A DNA stretch of 64,000 nt from Armatimonadota bacterium (lineage in GTDB: Bacteria > Armatimonadota > UBA5829 > DTLH01), in NCBI GenBank assembly GCA_029551395.1, contig JAKPFN010000123.1, forward strand, positions 1-64,000. The letters run 5' to 3'. A program made the translations under genes and the position numbers. The notes under the pieces are model-generated. The model was not told the DNA's origin, did not search any database, and saw only the letters and a program-made list of their open reading frames with translations. Position 1 is the first letter of the stretch; each line of letters opens with the position of its first letter. Positions 7,998 to 28,971 of the stretch are shown in pieces.

Positions 7998-8684
7998 ATG
8001 AAAATAAGAGGGGCAGAAATAACTTGTTTATTAGTTATTACCGTCCTTATGTTAATTCAACCAGCATTTGGTTCATATGACGGCAAACTGTATATGGGCG
8101 CAGGTCTGGACGGCACAGGTAGTGATTGGGTAAATGCAGTATTCGGATGGAACGTCAGCCAGAACAAAGATGGAAGTTGGCATTATGCCTACAACTTCAA
8201 TACCTACAGTAAAAAAGACATAAGCAACCTTACCTTTGAAGTATCCAAAGGTTTCAGTAGAAATGATATCTATAACTGGAAAGTATTGGATGGATATGTA
8301 GGCAGTTATAGTATGGAGACACAGCCGGAAGGCAAATGGGATTGTCCGGGAAGTATATATGGAATTAAACTGGATGGCGTTAGCGGCACCAAGCTTGCAT
8401 TTAGTTTCGATTCCTACCGGGCTCCTGCCTGGGGAGACTTCTATGCCAAAGGCGGGATATCGAAAAACGGCGAAGATTCGAAAACTTTCAACACAGTTTG
8501 GAATGCAGGACTGACTAAAAACGACAGTGATCCTGATGCCGCGCCAAAGAGTGGTTCTGTAAACTACCATATCCTGCGGCCAGACACTGCAGTTCCTGAG
8601 CCTGGAACGGTGGTTGCTGCTATTACCATGCTGTCGTCCGCAGGACTCTTCTTCCGAAGAAGAAAAACTGCGCAAGAAAGATAA
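7998..8684 (+). CDS. Secreted PEP-CTERM protein, likely exosortase substrate
   Basis: 228 residues. It has a signal peptide (hydrophobic about 9-25, ending QPAFG-SYD), a soluble aromatic- and Gly-rich domain of unknown fold, and the tripartite C-terminal tag: VPEPGT, a hydrophobic segment, then FRRRK. This is the sorting signal cut by exosortase. ATG 7998 follows AGGAG at about 10 bases. It sits between the sugar transferase and the flippase in the same locus as the exosortase, which fits a matrix or surface protein made together with the polysaccharide. The mature function is unknown. Confidence 0.9.
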   Translation: MKIRGAEITCLLVITVLMLIQPAFGSYDGKLYMGAGLDGTGSDWVNAVFGWNVSQNKDGSWHYAYNFNTYSKKDISNLTFEVSKGFSRNDIYNWKVLDGYVGSYSMETQPEGKWDCPGSIYGIKLDGVSGTKLAFSFDSYRAPAWGDFYAKGGISKNGEDSKTFNTVWNAGLTKNDSDPDAAPKSGSVNYHILRPDTAVPEPGTVVAAITMLSSAGLFFRRRKTAQER

Positions 8685-20367: not shown

Positions 20368-21429
20368 ATGAGGCTGGCGCTTATTACAGGTATAACAGGT
20401 CAGGATGGCTCATACCTTACAGAACTCCTGCTTGAGAAGGGCTACGAGGTGCATGGCATCGTCCGTCGAGGTTCGACATTCAATACGGGCAGGATCGAGC
20501 ACCTGTATAAAGACCCTCACATGAAGGATAACCGGTTATTTCTACACTACGGTGACCTGTCAGACTCAAGCAACATAAGCCGTTTGCTGGAAAAGATAAA
20601 ACCGGATGAGGTGTATCATCTCGGTGCTCAAAGCCATGTCCGCGTGAGTTTTGACATGCCTGAGTTCACATCCGACGTAACCGGGCTTGGCACGCTCAGG
20701 ATACTCGATGCCATAAGAGAAACAGGAGTGCGAACAAAGTTCTACCAGGCATCCAGCAGCGAGATGTTCGGCAAAGTCGTAGAGATTCCGCAGAAAGAAA
20801 CTACTCCATTCTATCCGAGAAGTCCCTATGGATGCGCCAAAGTCTTCGCTTACTGGATAACCAAAATGTACCGAGAAAGCTATGGCATATTTGCCTGCAA
20901 CGGGATACTCTTTAACCACGAATCCCCAAGAAGAGGTGAGACTTTTGTAACAAGGAAAATCACCCGCGGACTGGCCCGTATCAAGCTTGGATTGGAAGAA
21001 TGCCTTTACCTTGGAAACCTGAACGCTGTGCGCGACTGGGGATATGCCAGGGACTATGTATATGCGATGTGGCTTATGCTTCAGCAACCTGAACCTGATG
21101 ATTATGTGGTCGCCACTGGGGAAATGCATACCGTGCGTGAGTTCGTCGAAGAGGCAAGCAAAATATTGGGGTTCGATATCGAGTGGGAAGGTGAAGGGAT
21201 TGACGAGACAGGCATAGATACCAAGACCGGTCAAGTGCTGGTTCAGATCGATCCGATGTATTTCCGCCCGGCAGATGTGGATATTCTGATAGGTGACTAT
21301 TCAAAAGCAAGAGACAGACTTGGCTGGAAACCTGAAGTCAGGTTCCCGGAATTAGTGAAGATAATGGTCGAGGCAGACCTTGAGACTGAATCAAAGAAGA
21401 TTGGATTGGGAGTATCAGGTTATGGATAA
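20368..21429 (+). CDS. gmd: GDP-mannose 4,6-dehydratase
   Basis: 353 residues, full length. Short-chain dehydrogenase fold with NADP-binding GITGQDG at 8-14, catalytic YxxxK as Tyr154/Lys158 (SPYGCAK), SSSEMFG, and the Gmd-specific segments [16 protein letters not shown] and [13 protein letters not shown]. It converts GDP-D-mannose to GDP-4-keto-6-deoxy-mannose, the precursor of GDP-L-fucose and related sugars. An 89-base gap precedes it, with a TTGACA at 20305 but no convincing -10. It overlaps fcl by 8 bases. Confidence 0.96.
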
Positions 21430-22357
21430 AAGCGCAAAAGTATACGTAGCAGGTCATAGAGGACTTGTAGGTTCTGCAATAGTGAGAAAACTCCAGTCAG
21501 AAGGCTATCAGAACCTCATAACCAGAACATCTGGGGAACTCGATCTGACTGACAGCGCTGCAACAGCCCAGTTTTTCGATTCTGAAAAGCCGGAGTATGT
21601 CTTCCTGGCCGCAGCAAAGGTCGGTGGAATACTTGCAAACAGCCTCCAGGGAGCGGATTTCATCTGCGAAAACATACTTATACAGAGCAATGTCATCACC
21701 AACTCACACAGGACAGATGTCAAAAAGCTGCTTTTCCTTGGCAGCAGTTGCATCTATCCCAGAATGGCCCCCCAGCCTATAAGAGAGGACTGCCTGTTGG
21801 ATGGCAAACTCGAAGAAACGAACAAACCTTACGCGGTAGCCAAAATAGCCGGAATCACAATGTGTCAGGCATATAACCAGCAGTATGGAACCCGATACAT
21901 CTCCGTAATGCCGACGAACCTTTACGGTCCAAACGACAATTTCGACCTGAACTCATCCCATGTTCTCCCTGCGCTTATCAGAAAGATGCATGATGCCAGG
22001 ATCATGTATAAGCCCGAGGTTTCAGTCTGGGGTACAGGCACTCCCAAGCGTGAATTTCTTCATGTAGACGACCTCGCAGCAGCCTGTCTGTTCCTGATGC
22101 AGAACTATGAGGACTCAGAAATCATAAACATAGGCACAGGGGATGATATCTCGATAAAAGACCTGGCAGAAATGGTCAAAGAGGTCATCGGATACCAGGG
22201 CAGATTGGTTTTCGACGCATCAAAACCCGACGGAACCCCAAGAAAGCTACTGGATGTATCTAAAATCAACAGCATAGGCTGGAAAGCAACGATTGACCTG
22301 CAAACCGGCATCGAACAAACATACAAATGGTTCCTTCAAACACACTACAGAAAATAA
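21422..22357 (+). CDS. fcl: GDP-L-fucose synthase
   Basis: About 311 residues. NADPH-binding [10 protein letters not shown], catalytic GSSCIYP serine, and Tyr137/Lys141 (PYAVAK) with the Fcl-type NLYGPNDNF and FLHVDDLA motifs. It epimerises and reduces the Gmd product to GDP-L-fucose, so the polymer probably contains fucose or a fucose-derived sugar. ATG 21422 with GGGAG 9 bases upstream gives the 8-base overlap with gmd; the longer frame from 21380 has no better signal. It is the last gene of the exopolysaccharide locus before the tRNA-derived repeat. Confidence 0.95.
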
Positions 22358-22408: not shown

Positions 22409-22452
22409 TGGTGGGCGGTATTGGATTTGAACCTGTAGCCTCTTCGGTGTCA
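22409..22452 (-). repeat. Duplicated 3' half of tRNA-Val (putative attachment site)
   Basis: These 44 bases match 24121-24164 at 41 positions in the same orientation: 25 identical bases covering CCA, acceptor 3' strand and T-loop, four bases with three mismatches, then 15 identical bases reaching the anticodon loop. Beyond that the sequence diverges, so D-arm and 5' acceptor strand are missing, and the mismatches break the T-stem. It is not a functional tRNA. The layout is that expected of an attachment-site copy left by integration into a tRNA 3' end. Confidence 0.8.
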
Positions 22453-22530
22453 GCAAGTTGGCTTTTTCGCGCCTTAACAGAGGACAATATAGCATCTTGC
22501 TCCAGATATGGCAACAAGCATTTTGGTTAG

Positions 22531-22635
22531 GTTTACGATAATGCGAATGCCCAGGATATTACTCACGCACTCGACGGATTTGAAAACTGGCACCCCTGGC
22601 TGGACGATTTTAGAACTTTTCTACCTTACGCTTAG
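22531..22635 (+). other. Possible C-terminal gene fragment inside the island
   Basis: A short frame without a plausible start encodes about 34 residues ending ENWHPWLDDFRTFLPYA before TAG at 22633. The tryptophan-rich composition looks protein-like rather than random. I cannot assign it to a family. It fits the decayed content of the region between the two tRNA-Val copies. Confidence 0.3.
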
Positions 22636-22648
22636 TCGCTAACAACGG

Positions 22649-23527
22649 CTAGTGTGACAGCTTCACCAGCTCCTGAAAGTCGCTCTCGGTCAGTATCCGG
22701 ATGGGGAACCCTTTGGATATCAATACTTCAGCCTTGCGGTGTTTAGAACTCTTTTCATTACCGGCTAGTCTTCTTGCGTCTTGATTTCCCACTACGAGGA
22801 GAGTGGTTTCTTGTGTAACTCCAGACCCGACCTGACAGCCTATTTGTGCGGCCATATCTGCCGCAGTTCGTCTTGGAATTTCGAGTGCGCCAGTGAAGAC
22901 GATTACTTCGCCGTAGAAATCGCCTTCTGGATTACCGTCTCTTCTAATGCTCTGTTGGTCTCTTCTAACGCTCTGTTGGCAGTTGGGGGAGATTGGCTGT
23001 TCGACCCTCTTCAACCATCCTGCCATATCTAAGCCGGTCTTTGCAGAAGCGGCAAGAAGCACTCGGGCGGCGGCCTTGGCATCGTCTAAAGCGTTGTGAT
23101 GCTTAAATTCATATCCTATGTGTGCGCATACATTAGCAAGTCCATAGCCTTTCCATGCAAAATCCTCCCAAGTTCTCCTTGCAACTCGCGCCGTATCAAG
23201 CCAGTTGCATTCCATAGGAGGAAGATCGTACTTACCACATGCCTGTTGAAGCGCAATACGGTCAAATGCAGTGTGACATATGACCACAGTATCCTTGAGA
23301 ATACGCGATAAGTCTCCATGAATTTGTGGAAATCTCGGCGACTGCTTGACCATCTCTGCCGTGATTCCATGTATCGCAACATTCCAAGGGTCGAAGTAAT
23401 CTTCAGGATCTATGTAAGAAGTGAACTCGTCATTTATACAGTCATTCTCATAGCGAACCCATCCTATCTGGCAGATGGACCCCATGTCAGGATTGGCTGT
23501 CTCTACATCGATAGCGATGAAGTTCAT
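22649..23527 (-). CDS. DnaQ-like 3'-5' exonuclease with C-terminal BRCT domain
   Basis: About 292 residues from ATG 23527 (AAGGAG upstream); the longer frame to 23590 adds residues not seen in the family. The DEDDh exonuclease core has Exo I IDVETA, Exo II HTAFDR and Exo III HHNALDDAKA. The C-terminal BRCT domain (about 215-285: VIVFTGALEIPRRTAA, GSGVTQETTLLVVG) resembles that of NAD-dependent DNA ligase and is often found on such exonucleases. Likely roles are DNA repair or processing. The linker contains a duplicated 7-residue unit (QQSVRRD/QQSIRRD). It lies inside the tRNA-flanked segment, so it may be cargo. Confidence 0.85.
   Translation of the reverse strand: MNFIAIDVETANPDMGSICQIGWVRYENDCINDEFTSYIDPEDYFDPWNVAIHGITAEMVKQSPRFPQIHGDLSRILKDTVVICHTAFDRIALQQACGKYDLPPMECNWLDTARVARRTWEDFAWKGYGLANVCAHIGYEFKHHNALDDAKAAARVLLAASAKTGLDMAGWLKRVEQPISPNCQQSVRRDQQSIRRDGNPEGDFYGEVIVFTGALEIPRRTAADMAAQIGCQVGSGVTQETTLLVVGNQDARRLAGNEKSSKHRKAEVLISKGFPIRILTESDFQELVKLSH
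22938..22979. repeat. Two-unit 21-base tandem repeat in the exonuclease linker
   Basis: Units 22938-22958 and 22959-22979 are identical at 20 of 21 positions. In the exonuclease frame they encode QQS[VI]RRD twice between the exonuclease and BRCT domains. The near identity suggests recent slippage, and the unit keeps the frame. Confidence 0.8.
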
Positions 23528-23592
23528 GGGAACATCACTCCTTCGTGGTGGATTACCCCTGTTTTGGTAACGTGGGGACATAAAATACACAG

Positions 23593-23636
23593 CCTAATTA
23601 TTAGGTGATTATACGATGCTATTCTTGTAATGTCAA
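23593..23636 (-). promoter_or_regulatory. Consensus promoter with overlapping palindrome, exonuclease gene
   Basis: On the minus strand TTGACA (23636-23631), a 17-base spacer and TATAAT (23613-23608) form a perfect sigma-70 promoter. A palindrome CCTAAT-T-ATTAGG at 23593-23605 covers the predicted start site, a position where a repressor could act. The leader to the ATG at 23527 is about 70 bases. Confidence 0.75.
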
Positions 23637-23731
23637 AACGGACAAAGGAAGAAAAATTACTTGATTAGTAACTTAGGAATATGGGGACGAGTCCTTTTCA
23701 ATGATCCACCCCAAACGCATGTAAGGCATAG

Positions 23732-24097
23732 CTGGAGAGATGGATTTCAGAACTGGAGGAATATGGCAGGCAACTGATAGACCGAGGGTTCACTGGTTAT
23801 CTTAACAATGAGATGAAGCGTGTGCAACTGCAACTCCAAACTTCCACTTATGAATTGACCCATTTACAGTCCAATATAGTTACCCAGCGAGACATCATGG
23901 ACGCCATCACCAAGCTCGACCTCGTATGGGAGGAGCTTTTCTCTCTGGAACAGCGACGCATCGTCCATCTTCTGGTGGATAGAGTGTCGGTGCCAATAGA
24001 CGGTATCGATGTCCGCATTCGCGCAGGCGGGCTTCATTCGTTAATACAGGAACTTAAAGACACAACACAGGAGGATGAACGGCCTTGCAGGACGTAA
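23732..24097 (+). pseudogene. C-terminal remnant of a serine recombinase
   Basis: A continuous frame of about 121 codons runs from just after a TAG at 23729 to the stop at 24097 without a ribosome site. It carries a coiled-coil-like part and then DAITKLDLVWEELFSLEQRRIVHLLVDRV and a V-R-I-R strand, which is the end of resolvase/recombinase proteins with a zinc-ribbon domain. The catalytic N-terminus and DNA-binding domains are missing upstream (23640-23730 shows nothing recognisable). It is a decayed integrase gene next to the intact tRNA copy. Confidence 0.72.
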
Positions 24098-24120
24098 CAG
24101 GTATATCCGTTTCGACAAAG

Positions 24121-24195
24121 TGGTGGGCGGTATTGGATTTGAACCAATGGCCTCTTCGGTGTCAACGAAGCGATCTCCCCCTGATCTAACCGCCC
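24121..24195 (-). tRNA. tRNA-Val (anticodon GAC), CCA encoded
   Basis: The minus strand folds as a complete cloverleaf: acceptor GGGCGGT/ACCGCCC with discriminator A and encoded CCA, D-stem GATC/GATC, anticodon stem CTTCG/CGAAG with loop TTGACAC (anticodon GAC), 5-base variable loop and T-stem ATTGG/CCAAT with TTCAAAT loop. The 3' half is duplicated at 22409. A consensus promoter lies 43 bases upstream. Confidence 0.95.
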
Positions 24196-24302: not shown

Positions 24303-25475
24303 TTACATACTGTCTATTTCTATTAAAAGTTGCTTGAACCACTCTTTATCACGAACTGATTCAAAGTCGGAGCGCCGCTCCAGAATTATCTTATCTCGTT
24401 TATCCAAATAACCGATTGCCTTATACTTCAAAAGCCATTCTCTACACTGGGCTTCGTCACCCAGTTCGCCGTAGGTCGCTGCTAGAACCCACATACTTAA
24501 GTCACTTCCCAGCCGTGCAGCATCCTCTAGTTTACGTATAGCCTGCGAGCGTAAATGGCTTGCCTGTTCTCCATCTTTTTTCTGGGACTGGTCTAATAGT
24601 GCTAATGCCCAATTGTGCAATGCTTCGTAGTATTCTGGATCAATCTGAACTGCTGCCTCAAACAGACGGTAAGACTGCTCGAAGATTGTATCAGCCTCAT
24701 CACCATCTTTGTTCTCAGCCTGATTAGCTAAGGTGTAAGCCCAACAGAACCGAGTTAAAGGATCGTGGGGATTTATTCTGACTGCAGTAAAGTACTTACG
24801 ATATGCTTCCTCACACAGTTGGTCGGATTCTTCTCCCTCTTTCAAATCAGCAAGCGAAGTCAGAGTATTCCCCCAATTTATATATGCACTATCATTGTCA
24901 GAATCAAGTTCTACGGCAGCTTTGAATTTCTCACAAGCCAACTCCAGCAGGTGTATCCGATCTTCACCACTCTTAAGTTTTCCTAAATCAGTGAGGGCAA
25001 TACCCCAAAGATTAAAAAGTCTATATGACCCAACATAATCTTCCAAATAAGCGGTTTCATATATCCGGCAAGCTTGCTCCAAAAGAGGTTCGGCCTCTTT
25101 TCTTGATTTGATGTCCGCAAGCATGTACAACGCAAAACCCCAGTCACAGAACAAGCAACCTGTTGACTTGTTTTCATCTGCTGCGGCCTCAGACGCACTG
25201 ATGAACAACCTACAAGATTTCTGTAGAAGGCATTCTGTTTCTTCTTCGTCTTTGCAGTAACTGTGTGTTATAAGTGCCTTGCCCCACTGGTATTGCGTAT
25301 CGTATAAATCCGGACTAATATCAAGTGCAGTTGCGAATTTTTCGTACGCGAGGTTAAAAAGTCGGTCAGATTCGACTCCCTGAGCCATTTCTGCCTGCTT
25401 GACCAACTGCTTCCCAATCTTTACACATTCTTTGGCTAATTCACAAGAACATCCACCATTAGAATCAATCGACAT
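24303..25475 (-). CDS. TPR-repeat protein
   Basis: About 390 residues built of at least six tetratricopeptide-like helical pairs, each with W-G-x-A-L/x-x-L-A patterns (for example YQWGKALITH, CDWGFALYMLADI, NLWGIALTDLG, INWGNTLTSLADL, HNWALALLDQ), then a Sel1-like end. No signal peptide or membrane segment. Such scaffolds mediate protein-protein contacts; no partner can be named. ATG 25475 overlaps the hydrolase stop as TGATG, so translation is coupled; an alternative ATG lies at 25493. Confidence 0.8.
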   Translation of the reverse strand: MSIDSNGGCSCELAKECVKIGKQLVKQAEMAQGVESDRLFNLAYEKFATALDISPDLYDTQYQWGKALITHSYCKDEEETECLLQKSCRLFISASEAAADENKSTGCLFCDWGFALYMLADIKSRKEAEPLLEQACRIYETAYLEDYVGSYRLFNLWGIALTDLGKLKSGEDRIHLLELACEKFKAAVELDSDNDSAYINWGNTLTSLADLKEGEESDQLCEEAYRKYFTAVRINPHDPLTRFCWAYTLANQAENKDGDEADTIFEQSYRLFEAAVQIDPEYYEALHNWALALLDQSQKKDGEQASHLRSQAIRKLEDAARLGSDLSMWVLAATYGELGDEAQCREWLLKYKAIGYLDKRDKIILERRSDFESVRDKEWFKQLLIEIDSM

Positions 25476-26821
25476 CACTGCGCTTTCACCCATGCTGCAA
25501 TATCTTCCACTACAATCTCAGCCACATTGCCGGGTTTATCGTATTCATCCGGGCTGCTCTTGCCTTCACCTTCAACAAAAAGATGGTTCAGCTTAGGATA
25601 TAGCTTGAATGTAACGTTCTTCTTATCGACGAGCGCTTCTTTCCATCCATCGTAGTCCAGATATGTCACCTGATAATCCCTGCCGCCCTGCAGAATCAAC
25701 ATCGGCTGCGTAAGGTGCTTCGCTGCTTCAGCAGGTTTATAATCTCTGAGGTCCAACCAGTAACTGGCCGGTATGCTGAATGGAAGCTCAGATGCCGGAG
25801 TCTCAGAAGAAAGGTTCTTGTCCTTCACCTTAGCCACCTGCGCCCGAATTTTCTCCACCGGCGATTGATCCGCACCAGGCTGGTTCTTGAGCGAGAAAAG
25901 ATATGCCGTCTGATCAAGTATCACATCCTCTAAAGGCCTTGTCGTACCTGCTAGAATCACCACTCCGGCAATATCCGAGTTCCCTTTTGCAATCCTGGGA
26001 ATCAACATGCCGCCAAGGCTGTGCCCGAGCACGAATATCCGCTTCTGATCGATCTCCGGAATCTTCCGCAGAGTCTTTACTGCCTCCAAAGCATCGTCGA
26101 TAGTTTCATCCTTGACGGTCATCCTTTCGCTCATCCGAACGATCCTGGCTGTGTAGTATTTGGTGCGTTTCTCGTAACGGAGCACCGCTATACCCTGTGA
26201 TGCCAACCCCCATGCCAGGTCCTTGAACGGTTTGTTAGGCCCAATTGTCTCATCCCTATCCTGTGGACCTGATCCATGCACAAGCACCAGAGCAGGAAAC
26301 GGCCCCTTACCTTTCGGCAGCGTCAATGTACCAGGCAGTTCCCACTCTTTATCATCGCCTACGGTCACAGGTCTTTCCACAAACTCCTCATGCTTTATAT
26401 ATGCAGGAGATTTATACTCGACATTCGGTTGCTTAGGCGCAAACCAGAGTCCGCTGATCCTCTGCCTGCTGTCAAACACCACCTTGGCCTCAAGCGCCGT
26501 TTTCTCAAACGCACAAGAGATATAAACGACCTCTGAGTTCCCTATCTTCTCAACCCGCATTTCATTTTGCGACTTGAGATCACCACACTGAGTCTTCACC
26601 TGGTTCCAGACTTCCTGAAGTTTATCAGGAGGCAGCGCGGTTTTCATCGTAGCATCGAACATATTGGCTGCACCAACCATATCGCCCTTCTGCAGCAGCT
26701 CAATAAACTGTTGAGCAATCTTTATGGTTTCACTGGAGCTACCCTTCGACTGCTCACCAGAACAAGAAGCAAGACCAAAAAGGAAGAACATAATGCAGAA
26801 TATGTACCCCCACTTTTTCAT
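25475..26821 (-). CDS. Lipoprotein DUF3887-alpha/beta hydrolase
   Basis: About 448 residues started at ATG 26821 with a GGTGAGG site; the longer frame lacks a signal. The N-terminus KKWGYIFCIMFFLFGLASC is a lipoprotein signal ending in a lipobox cysteine. A DUF3887-like domain (about 30-130, AQQFIELLQKGD) is followed by a dienelactone-hydrolase-type alpha/beta hydrolase with oxyanion loop LVHGSGPQDRDET, nucleophile GHSLGG near 265, Asp in GGRDYQ near 379 and His in LNHLF near 410. The substrate is unknown; esters or peptides are possible. It probably acts in the periplasm attached to a membrane. Confidence 0.87.
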   Translation of the reverse strand: MKKWGYIFCIMFFLFGLASCSGEQSKGSSSETIKIAQQFIELLQKGDMVGAANMFDATMKTALPPDKLQEVWNQVKTQCGDLKSQNEMRVEKIGNSEVVYISCAFEKTALEAKVVFDSRQRISGLWFAPKQPNVEYKSPAYIKHEEFVERPVTVGDDKEWELPGTLTLPKGKGPFPALVLVHGSGPQDRDETIGPNKPFKDLAWGLASQGIAVLRYEKRTKYYTARIVRMSERMTVKDETIDDALEAVKTLRKIPEIDQKRIFVLGHSLGGMLIPRIAKGNSDIAGVVILAGTTRPLEDVILDQTAYLFSLKNQPGADQSPVEKIRAQVAKVKDKNLSSETPASELPFSIPASYWLDLRDYKPAEAAKHLTQPMLILQGGRDYQVTYLDYDGWKEALVDKKNVTFKLYPKLNHLFVEGEGKSSPDEYDKPGNVAEIVVEDIAAWVKAQ

Positions 26822-26961: not shown

Positions 26962-28971
26962 TCAATATGCAAATGGATCGTTTGGATCAGGCTGCGCGAC
27001 TACATCGAGCGCCGGTCGGGACGGCGGAACCTGGTCTATCCTGGCCTTTTTCCTGATGCAGCTCCGAAGGAACGCCATAGGGTCTTCAGGTTTACGCTGC
27101 AGCGTTTTATGAAATGCTTGGAGAATCTCTTCCTCATCTCCATTCGCAGACGCAATCACATCCCGGACTACTGTCCTCTGCAGAGTTTTATCTATTCTGG
27201 ACAACTGAACGAAGACCGCCTCATCCAGCGGCATATCTTCAGCAGGAGGAAATATCTTTATGCCATCCGGGCCGCGAAGGATGTTCGGACGGGGGAATTT
27301 TACGAATATAGGTTGCGAAAAATGCGGATGTCTCAGCATAAGCTGGCCTTTGGCAAGCGTCGCAAGCTTCTCTTTGGTCGCTGCAGTCAAGACCTGATAG
27401 CCTGGAGTCGCCAACTCGTCCATATCCATCCGGCCATAGATGCAAGTAGCGCTGTTGCCGACTATCCGCTTATGAACCTGGCTTCTGAACTGCTGTGCTG
27501 AGAATAAAACAAGCCCAAGATACCTTCCGCGCTCAGAAATATCCAGCAAAGTCTGCTTCAGATAGGTATCCTGACCATCTGATGGAGCATATTTGTTCAG
27601 CTCATCCACTACTACAACCACATGCTCCACTCCAAGCGCCTTCTTCTCAAGATACTCCCGCAGTTGGCTGACGATACGTGTGAAAACAAGGTCCTGCGCC
27701 TGAGGATCGACGTTCGCTACATCAATGACATAGACAGTCCTGTCTTTAAACTCGCCCCAGGGAAGATCACACACGACTTCATCCGGACTGATAAGCCCTC
27801 TGTAACGGGTAACGAGGTTGCTTAGCCTGTTATAGACCTTTCTGATGGTTGCATAATGGTGCGTCTGATACTCTGACCTGTTTTGAGCTTCCATAAACTT
27901 CAAGACCAGGTCAAACCATTCCGTAAGCCCCTTGAAATCCCGCACGGTCAGCTTGGTTTCGCCAACCTCGCAGTCCTGATCGATCACGCGCTGGTTTATA
28001 TACTGAATGAGAGCATCCGCTTTGGCATCTATGTCATCCTTATTGAGCACGACCTCGCTGAACTTCATAATCTCGCGCAGTCCCCAGGACAGAGGGTAAA
28101 CATTCGAGATCACCTGAGGATTCGTTCTAAGCGTGTTCAGATTCACCCGGTCAGCCTTATACGGAGCATAATACACAACGTTCTTGAAAGGCTCAGCAGG
28201 AATATCCAGAAGCCTGTACATCTCGCGATCCCGATCTGAAAGCATCGGCACACCGCAATCCTCATATTCTTTCACATAGGGAAAATCCGGCGGCGCTTCG
28301 GCAGGAAAGTCCAAAAACAGCAGGTCTGGACCTTTGACATTGAAGCAGACTGCTGCAACATCGCCTTTGAAGTGTTTGAAGATACTGGATAAGATGAATT
28401 CGATGGAACTGGTCTTGGTTGCAAGCCCGGAGACACCTGTAAGGTTTAAATGTGCTGCTTCGGGACCTAAAAGGAAGTCGGCATCAAGATAAACAGGTGA
28501 TAGTAACTCGCCGTTTTGATAAAGACCGACCGGAATGCCGGAAACATCCTTAAAAGAATCCATCCTGAGCGCGCGGCAGACTGCTTCATCATCAGCGAGA
28601 TACACCGGGCCAACAGGCACCGGCTGCAGAGGCTCTTCAGGCTCGACTCTGAGTACTGCAGCAGTGTAGAACCTCATCTCCGGCCGGATTGTAGCAGGTT
28701 CAGCTCCCGGATTACCTTCTGCCGCGATGAAATCGTGGATAGCCGAAGCCAGGTCTGTAAACCCAAATCCTTCCACTACGACGCCATAGATATCTTTGCC
28801 TGCTGTCTTGACATGCACCAGAGTGCCGATACCCACCGGCGAATCTAATGGAGTCCAGAAGTTGAAACTATAAGCAGTATTGGGCTTCTGTTCAGTAGCA
28901 ACAACTTTGCCTATTTCCAATAATTCGCCTGTAACAGCCTTATCTACCTCATTCTTTTCGCTTGCAGCCAC
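26962..28971 (-). CDS. herA: HerA-family DNA-translocating ATPase
   Basis: 669 residues. A HAS-barrel-like N-terminus (about 10-110) precedes the ATPase core. The Walker A equivalent is GVSGLATKTS near 178-187, where the glycine before lysine is Thr, a variant I have seen in this bacterial subgroup. Walker B is VVVVVDELNKYAP near 453, and HerA motifs follow (QQFRSQVH, GNSATCIYGRMD). HerA hexamers pump DNA into the NurA nuclease for end resection. The nurA-like gene lies 21 bases upstream in the same direction, supporting the pairing. Product length fits the family. Confidence 0.85.
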   Translation of the reverse strand: MAASEKNEVDKAVTGELLEIGKVVATEQKPNTAYSFNFWTPLDSPVGIGTLVHVKTAGKDIYGVVVEGFGFTDLASAIHDFIAAEGNPGAEPATIRPEMRFYTAAVLRVEPEEPLQPVPVGPVYLADDEAVCRALRMDSFKDVSGIPVGLYQNGELLSPVYLDADFLLGPEAAHLNLTGVSGLATKTSSIEFILSSIFKHFKGDVAAVCFNVKGPDLLFLDFPAEAPPDFPYVKEYEDCGVPMLSDRDREMYRLLDIPAEPFKNVVYYAPYKADRVNLNTLRTNPQVISNVYPLSWGLREIMKFSEVVLNKDDIDAKADALIQYINQRVIDQDCEVGETKLTVRDFKGLTEWFDLVLKFMEAQNRSEYQTHHYATIRKVYNRLSNLVTRYRGLISPDEVVCDLPWGEFKDRTVYVIDVANVDPQAQDLVFTRIVSQLREYLEKKALGVEHVVVVVDELNKYAPSDGQDTYLKQTLLDISERGRYLGLVLFSAQQFRSQVHKRIVGNSATCIYGRMDMDELATPGYQVLTAATKEKLATLAKGQLMLRHPHFSQPIFVKFPRPNILRGPDGIKIFPPAEDMPLDEAVFVQLSRIDKTLQRTVVRDVIASANGDEEEILQAFHKTLQRKPEDPMAFLRSCIRKKARIDQVPPSRPALDVVAQPDPNDPFAY

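Follow-up and report, generated by a model that had tools for sequence, protein, structure and literature searches.

A 1.7-kb interval at the 3' end of the tRNA-Val(GAC) gene of an Armatimonadota bacterium is probably the decayed remnant of an island that used this tRNA gene as its integration site. The interval lies within the 64,000-nucleotide (nt) stretch analyzed here (the window; contig JAKPFN010000123.1, positions 1 to 64,000). It retains the C terminus of a large serine recombinase, and many relatives of this recombinase lie beside tRNA and transfer-messenger RNA (tmRNA) genes whose 3' ends face the recombinase gene. The best explanation of the site as a whole, which we hold with moderate confidence, is that the interval is a prophage-type remnant at tRNA-Val, that the integrase was a serine recombinase of this family, and that a 44-nt copy of the 3' half of the tRNA gene represents the far end.

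Anatomy of the tRNA-Val scar

The interval and its flanks carry the following features, in window coordinates.

21425-22357 (+): NAD-dependent epimerase (GDP-fucose-synthase-like), last gene of the exopolysaccharide (EPS) cluster; left flank, outside the island
22409-22452 (-): tRNA gene (tDNA) fragment copying tRNA-Val nt 32-75, CCA included, 41 of 44 nt identical (sequence match)
22649-23590 (-): exonuclease, DnaQ-like DEDDh 3'-5' type with a C-terminal BRCT region, intact open reading frame (ORF) of 313 amino acids (aa), phage-type (phrog_192)
23735-24097 (+): remnant (C terminus) of a large serine recombinase, directed towards the 3' end of the tRNA gene; homology spans 23732-24088
24098-24120: gap of 23 nt from the remnant stop codon to the tRNA 3' end, without the small gene and arm of relatives
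24121-24195 (-): tRNA-Val(GAC), intact, 3' end towards the island (ARAGORN)
24303-25493 (-): TPR protein; right flank, outside the island

The first-pass annotation had described an intact tRNA-Val and a same-orientation copy of its 3' half bracketing 1.7 kb that holds a serine-recombinase remnant and an exonuclease gene, with the EPS locus ending at the copy, and all of these elements were borne out. tRNA-Val(GAC) is the sole ARAGORN tRNA call in the window, and its position on the minus strand places its 3' end towards the island, as had been stated. The copy begins 1,712 bp from the tRNA, and two of its three changes fall in the T stem, on its 5' strand. Across both strands of the whole 64 kb, the runner-up among ungapped matches to the copied 44 nt reaches 25 of 44, and the copy is therefore not a chance resemblance. 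Genome-wide (3.58 Mb, 165 contigs), tRNA-Val(GAC) has three matches, namely, the intact gene, tRNA-Val(CAC) on another contig, and the copy. The epimerase ORF ends 51 bp before the copy. Two features of the Islander signature of a tDNA island are present: intact tDNA bounds one end, and a displaced 3' fragment of like orientation bounds the other. The G+C content is 0.471 in the interval and 0.471 and 0.484 in the flanks, and this equality gives no compositional sign of foreign DNA.

The recombinase remnant, a reading frame of 120 aa, aligns to the C termini of ~530-aa recombinases from the same order or class (best E value, 7.8e-26 at 43% identity; another, 7.3e-24 at 48%). Pfam detected no recombinase domain in it, PHROGs gave only a match at an E value of 0.005, the CcrB model of NCBIfam did not match it, and no other recombinase parts were detected in the window. 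All 10 intact relatives tested have Resolvase, Recombinase, and Zn-ribbon matches, a set not found in the window copy; what the remnant shares with the family module is a homologous recombinase C terminus facing the 3' end of a tDNA. The orientation and homology of the remnant indicate that a serine recombinase of this kind once stood at tRNA-Val. The neighboring exonuclease matches RNase_T in Pfam (E value, 1.4e-20) and BRCT just below the Pfam cut-off (E value, 4.6e-4), and it has relatives in 60 of 50,697 phage records, with 31-44% identity among the 15 matches listed.

Beyond the right flank, a HerA-like ATPase is encoded at 26962-28971 (weak NCBIfam and PADLOC matches, no Pfam match), and a 356-aa ORF without any family match lies upstream of it, making a possible HerA-nuclease pair.

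A serine recombinase family at tRNA and tmRNA genes

A search with the family alignment, restricted to one genome per species, yielded 80 recombinase loci spanning Armatimonadota, Magnetococcales, Alpha-, Beta-, and Deltaproteobacteria, and Planctomycetota. ARAGORN found 29 tRNA or tmRNA genes downstream of the recombinase in 27 of the 80 loci, and all 29 are encoded on the strand opposite to the recombinase gene, their 3' ends towards it; upstream there was a single such gene, the sequence searched being 552 kb downstream versus 471 kb upstream. The figure of 27 loci is a lower bound because contig ends cut many of the other 53. The targets comprise tRNA-Ala, -Gln, -Glu, -Gly, -Lys, -Met, -Pro, -Ser, and -Val as well as tmRNA, and the gap between recombinase and tDNA ranges from 229 nt (L037) to 9 kb.

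The genes around the recombinase also recur. A gene of 124-158 aa follows immediately in 22 of 31 distinct loci, counted after repeats of one record were removed, and 47 of 87 loci, among which at least one locus pair repeats a record, have a DUF2924-type gene ahead of the recombinase. An assignment of the small downstream gene to DUF2924 was wrong, DUF2924 being the upstream gene. The rest of the gap is occupied by cargo that differs from locus to locus, and the annotated examples (L107, L110, and others) hold type I and methylase/ResIII-type restriction-modification genes; single matches in a pooled scan of gap ORFs include a KAP NTPase and AbiEii. For 111 of the 135 gap ORFs, 25 of 68 Pfam families are listed, and these include no tyrosine integrase. 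Farther upstream, the loci sampled carry CI- or LexA-like repressors, Sak4, a Cas4-type exonuclease, and helicases, and the elements of the family therefore look like prophages. CcrB is the best NCBIfam model for the recombinase of L026, but at 192.8 bits it does not reach the cut-off of 900.

Seven islands were scored for a far end, G015 being left out because its tRNA is cut by the edge of the stretch. In four of these seven prophage islands the far end was mapped, 33-45 kb away, as an 8- to 17-nt repeat of the 3' end of tRNA-Ser. Two of them belong to a single Chelativorans genome, in which the far ends, at 41.5 and 42.0 kb, consist of the last 8 nt of tRNA-Ser, with a GGAGA motif lying 30 nt ahead of the CCA end; the far end of a Rhodobacter island is of the same kind, at 33.3 kb, and an alphaproteobacterial island has the 17-nt repeat CACTCCCTCCGCCAGCT at 44.7 kb. 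No far end was found in the islands of G048, G002, and G001. In two islands a second, stacked site follows. At L104 (~6.4 kb downstream of the recombinase) and L122 (~1.6 kb), both phage arms are joined around CTCCGCCA without a tRNA, and these are candidate natural phage attachment sites (attP) or candidate stacked junctions. A free circular attP was also sought on plasmid pSU2, and none was convincing.

No long displaced tDNA copies were found within 10 kb upstream of the intact relatives, and most of the other partial tDNA matches that were scanned are isoacceptor tRNAs. The relative G001 has a fragment of ~95 nt from the 3' part of a tmRNA (L166:9154-9245, G001:C317), which is 87% like the intact tmRNA on another contig and around which no tmRNA gene was called; it was not counted as a far end because of a putative MutL-like frame, by our own reading, on its 5' side. 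Among 40 family members, no empty site of one Chelativorans island was found: the upstream gene is kept in seven, and the downstream sequence differs in each readable one. A seemingly shared downstream P-type ATPase proved to be only a paralogue.

The family junctions have a sequence in common. TCTC starts exactly at +20 after the CCA in 21 of 31 family junctions, often followed, as judged by eye, by a hairpin and a T run, versus 1 of 63 controls (Fisher P value, 1.8e-12, which is only indicative because the loci are related). The controls were drawn from 65 tRNAs of other stretches, 2 of them with the motif, by removing the window tRNA and an Aquamicrobium tRNA that had the motif and whose flank is nearly identical to that of a family member. 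When similar flanks were grouped, 23 groups resulted, with the motif in the first member of 13. No recombinase was found within the stretch examined at L303 (a tRNA-Val with TCTC at +20), L304, or L305.

Origin of the two ends of the scar

Consistent with the behavior of the family, we propose that a prophage-type element integrated at the 3' end of tRNA-Val and that the 1.7 kb is its leftover. The integrase would have been a large serine recombinase of the CcrB-like, DUF2924-linked family, with a crossover that, judging from relatives, would lie in the last ~8 nt of the tRNA or tmRNA gene. The incoming element would restore the 3' end of the tRNA gene, with its own terminator then following, and the integrase gene would consequently read towards the tRNA. 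The window would since have lost the catalytic half of the integrase, the DUF2924 and small partner genes, and the phage genes, with the exonuclease gene staying open. We infer that the element used the site of the family and that the 44-nt copy is its far end; alternatively, the copy may be the far end of a second element at the same tRNA, an option raised by the stacked elements at one tRNA in two relatives.

Several observations weigh against this explanation. The copy, 44 nt long and starting in the anticodon loop, is unlike the 8- to 17-nt repeats of the four mapped relatives, and searches of the whole genomes of G001, G015, G002, and G012 for 3' copies of their recombinase-linked tRNAs (tRNA-Glu, tRNA-Gln, and tRNA-Pro; at least 40 nt, above 76% identity) returned nothing besides the genes themselves. 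The recombinase-to-tDNA gap is 23 nt in the window versus 229 nt to 9 kb in relatives, and neither the DUF2924 gene nor the small downstream gene gave a significant tblastn match in the window. The flank of the window tRNA lacks TCTC, and its junction score of -9.9 is at control level, 38 of the 63 controls scoring equal or higher. Finally, there was no genome of the same genus among 40 relatives to provide an empty-site comparator, and at none of 29 tRNA-Val loci of relatives do the window's flanking genes stand beside the tRNA.

The flank of the 22409 copy behaves differently from that of the tRNA. Its junction score of 8.8 exceeds all 63 controls (maximum, 5.8), for one of two sites tried and in a T-rich stretch, and this no more than hints at an older, stacked junction at the copy. 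With the tRNA flank at control level, the partner genes gone, and the copy starting in the anticodon loop, the scar may record one element or two. The first-pass designation of the site as a decayed tRNA-Val island is thus supported in part, by the bracketed phage-type genes and by a remnant derived from a tDNA-facing family; a single integration may have made both ends.

The extent of the copy also bears on a rather unlikely alternative, namely, that a tyrosine integrase brought an island into tRNA-Val at the anticodon loop. The 44-nt copy would then be the displaced 3' half, the integrase would since have been lost, and the serine remnant would be cargo or a second, independent insertion. 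The anticodon loop is a usual crossover place of tyrosine integrases, and the block of identity runs from tRNA nt 32, in that loop, to the CCA; the repeats mapped for the serine family are much shorter. A lone 45-nt copy of a tRNA-Val 3' half in another Armatimonadota genome (L178:7786-7830, G029:C16) likewise starts in the anticodon loop and has nearly the same extent, with no tRNA gene around it, and tyrosine integrases occur elsewhere in the window's own genome. However, no tyrosine-integrase ORF was found between 22409 and 24121 in the ORF list or by Pfam, only the serine-recombinase remnant, and the orientation and position of that remnant match the serine family. Moreover, of the five tyrosine-integrase stretches scanned in this genome, not one lies within ~1.5 kb of a tRNA.

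In further support of the serine-recombinase explanation, the same genome encodes a single protein with a Recombinase-domain (PF07508) match, a 601-aa large serine recombinase on contig C152 (L314:8303-10108, minus strand). Its gene overlaps the convergent tRNA-Met gene (8270-8346, plus strand) by its last 44 nt, so that the last residues, GAGRGFEPLTFGL, are encoded by antisense tRNA. With ~24% identity to the nearest family member compared, it belongs to another branch. The 5 kb of contig beyond the gene yielded no far copy of the tRNA-Met end. A C-terminal fragment of a tyrosine integrase lies ~3 kb from this recombinase (L314:13282-13662, G000:C152), suggesting that tRNA-Met may have been used more than once.

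It is quite improbable that the copy is what remains of a second tRNA-Val gene or of a local duplication, with the intervening genes having arrived separately and no site-specific integration. Tandem tRNA-Val genes are known in the phylum (L179, 9 nt apart), and the T stem of the copy is decaying; the copy, however, has no 5' half, its limits (a break in the anticodon loop and an end at CCA) are those of displaced fragments, and the interval is filled by phage-type genes. An assembly or binning artefact of this metagenome-derived genome, which consists of 165 contigs with an estimated contamination of 2.8%, is very improbable, given that the feature is internal to a 133.8-kb contig of uniform G+C content.

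Known systems and a proposed recognition rule

In the textbook contrast, tyrosine integrases enter tRNA genes and serine integrases do not. Islander-type tyrosine-integrase islands resemble the window in having intact tDNA and a same-orientation displaced 3' fragment around the island, but the window has only a serine remnant on board. A 2015 survey stated that serine integrases were not known to target tRNA or tmRNA genes, and the word tRNA does not occur in the main text of a survey of large serine recombinases (PMC10083194). In the open literature, most subscription papers lying outside its scope, we found no account of a family of serine integrases at tRNA genes; such sites may be present in the TIGER database without having been remarked on.

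Individual systems come close. The recombinase of the Acidithiobacillus phage AcaML1 (JX507079) is 54% identical to that of L107 and, as in the family, stands between two small genes, one of 147 aa upstream and a "small subunit" gene downstream. According to the relevant part of its description, AcaML1 integrated at ssrA (tmRNA; "srrA" in Table 2) with 10-bp direct repeats (PMC3826726), and record JX507079 has an identical 10 nt at its start and end. AcaML1 differs from the window in being an intact phage with tmRNA rather than tRNA as the reported target (same part of PMC3826726). In Dehalococcoides, as given in a portion of PMC3146451, DsiB, a CcrB-like serine recombinase of ~540 aa, targets the tmRNA 3' end and leaves a 20-bp repeat; recombinase size and target resemble the family, whereas the ssrA islands carry a two-recombinase module with DsiA, ParB, and Mom, use tmRNA only, and, within that portion, are not reported to have phage genes. 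The large serine recombinase of Wolbachia phage WO shows 39% identity and, like the family, has a DUF2924 gene beside it (PMC11376236, in part); it differs in that its reported bacterial attachment site (attB) is a magnesium chelatase gene or intergenic DNA, and the word "tRNA" is absent from the corresponding portion of PMC9203015.

The mapped sites suggest how one enzyme family might use so many tRNA genes. A tRNA or tmRNA gene has its T-loop sequence GGTTC beginning at -25 relative to its end; in the phage arm, the start of a like motif, G[GT]TT, is at -30 in five of the seven cases and at -29 in the other two. For the LI integrase, a section of PMC3783163 places the zinc-ribbon motif in attP 5 bp outward relative to attB. 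By our own arithmetic, the outer motifs are mirrored about a center between -7 and -6, a position within the 8-nt repeat and in agreement with the numbering 11-19 (attB) and 16-24 (attP) in that section of PMC3783163. From these data, which come from alphaproteobacterial sites ending in the tRNA-Ser core, we tentatively propose that the attB of a widespread clade of phage large serine integrases may be the 3' part that tRNA and tmRNA genes universally share: the zinc ribbon would read the invariant T loop (GGTTCRA, -25), crossover would occur near -7/-6 in the acceptor stem, and the phage-arm motif would lie 5 bp further out (-30). One enzyme family could thus move among many tRNA genes, and the window would be the fossil of such an event. 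AcaML1 does not fit the 5-bp shift: one of its arms lacks TCTC at +20, and the other has its T-loop-like motif, GGTTCGG, at -25, not -30.

Alone, the scar in the window is an ordinary fossil, of which the recombinase remnant is the informative part; the interest lies in the family. A serine-integrase family found at many tRNA and tmRNA genes, in one orientation and with a mostly fixed junction motif, bears on the textbook contrast between tyrosine and serine integrases, and it allows the attP/attB recognition rule to be tested on sites that occur in nature. Serine integrases are valued as tools, and those that combine a conserved tRNA target with a readable attP would be applicable across many bacteria.
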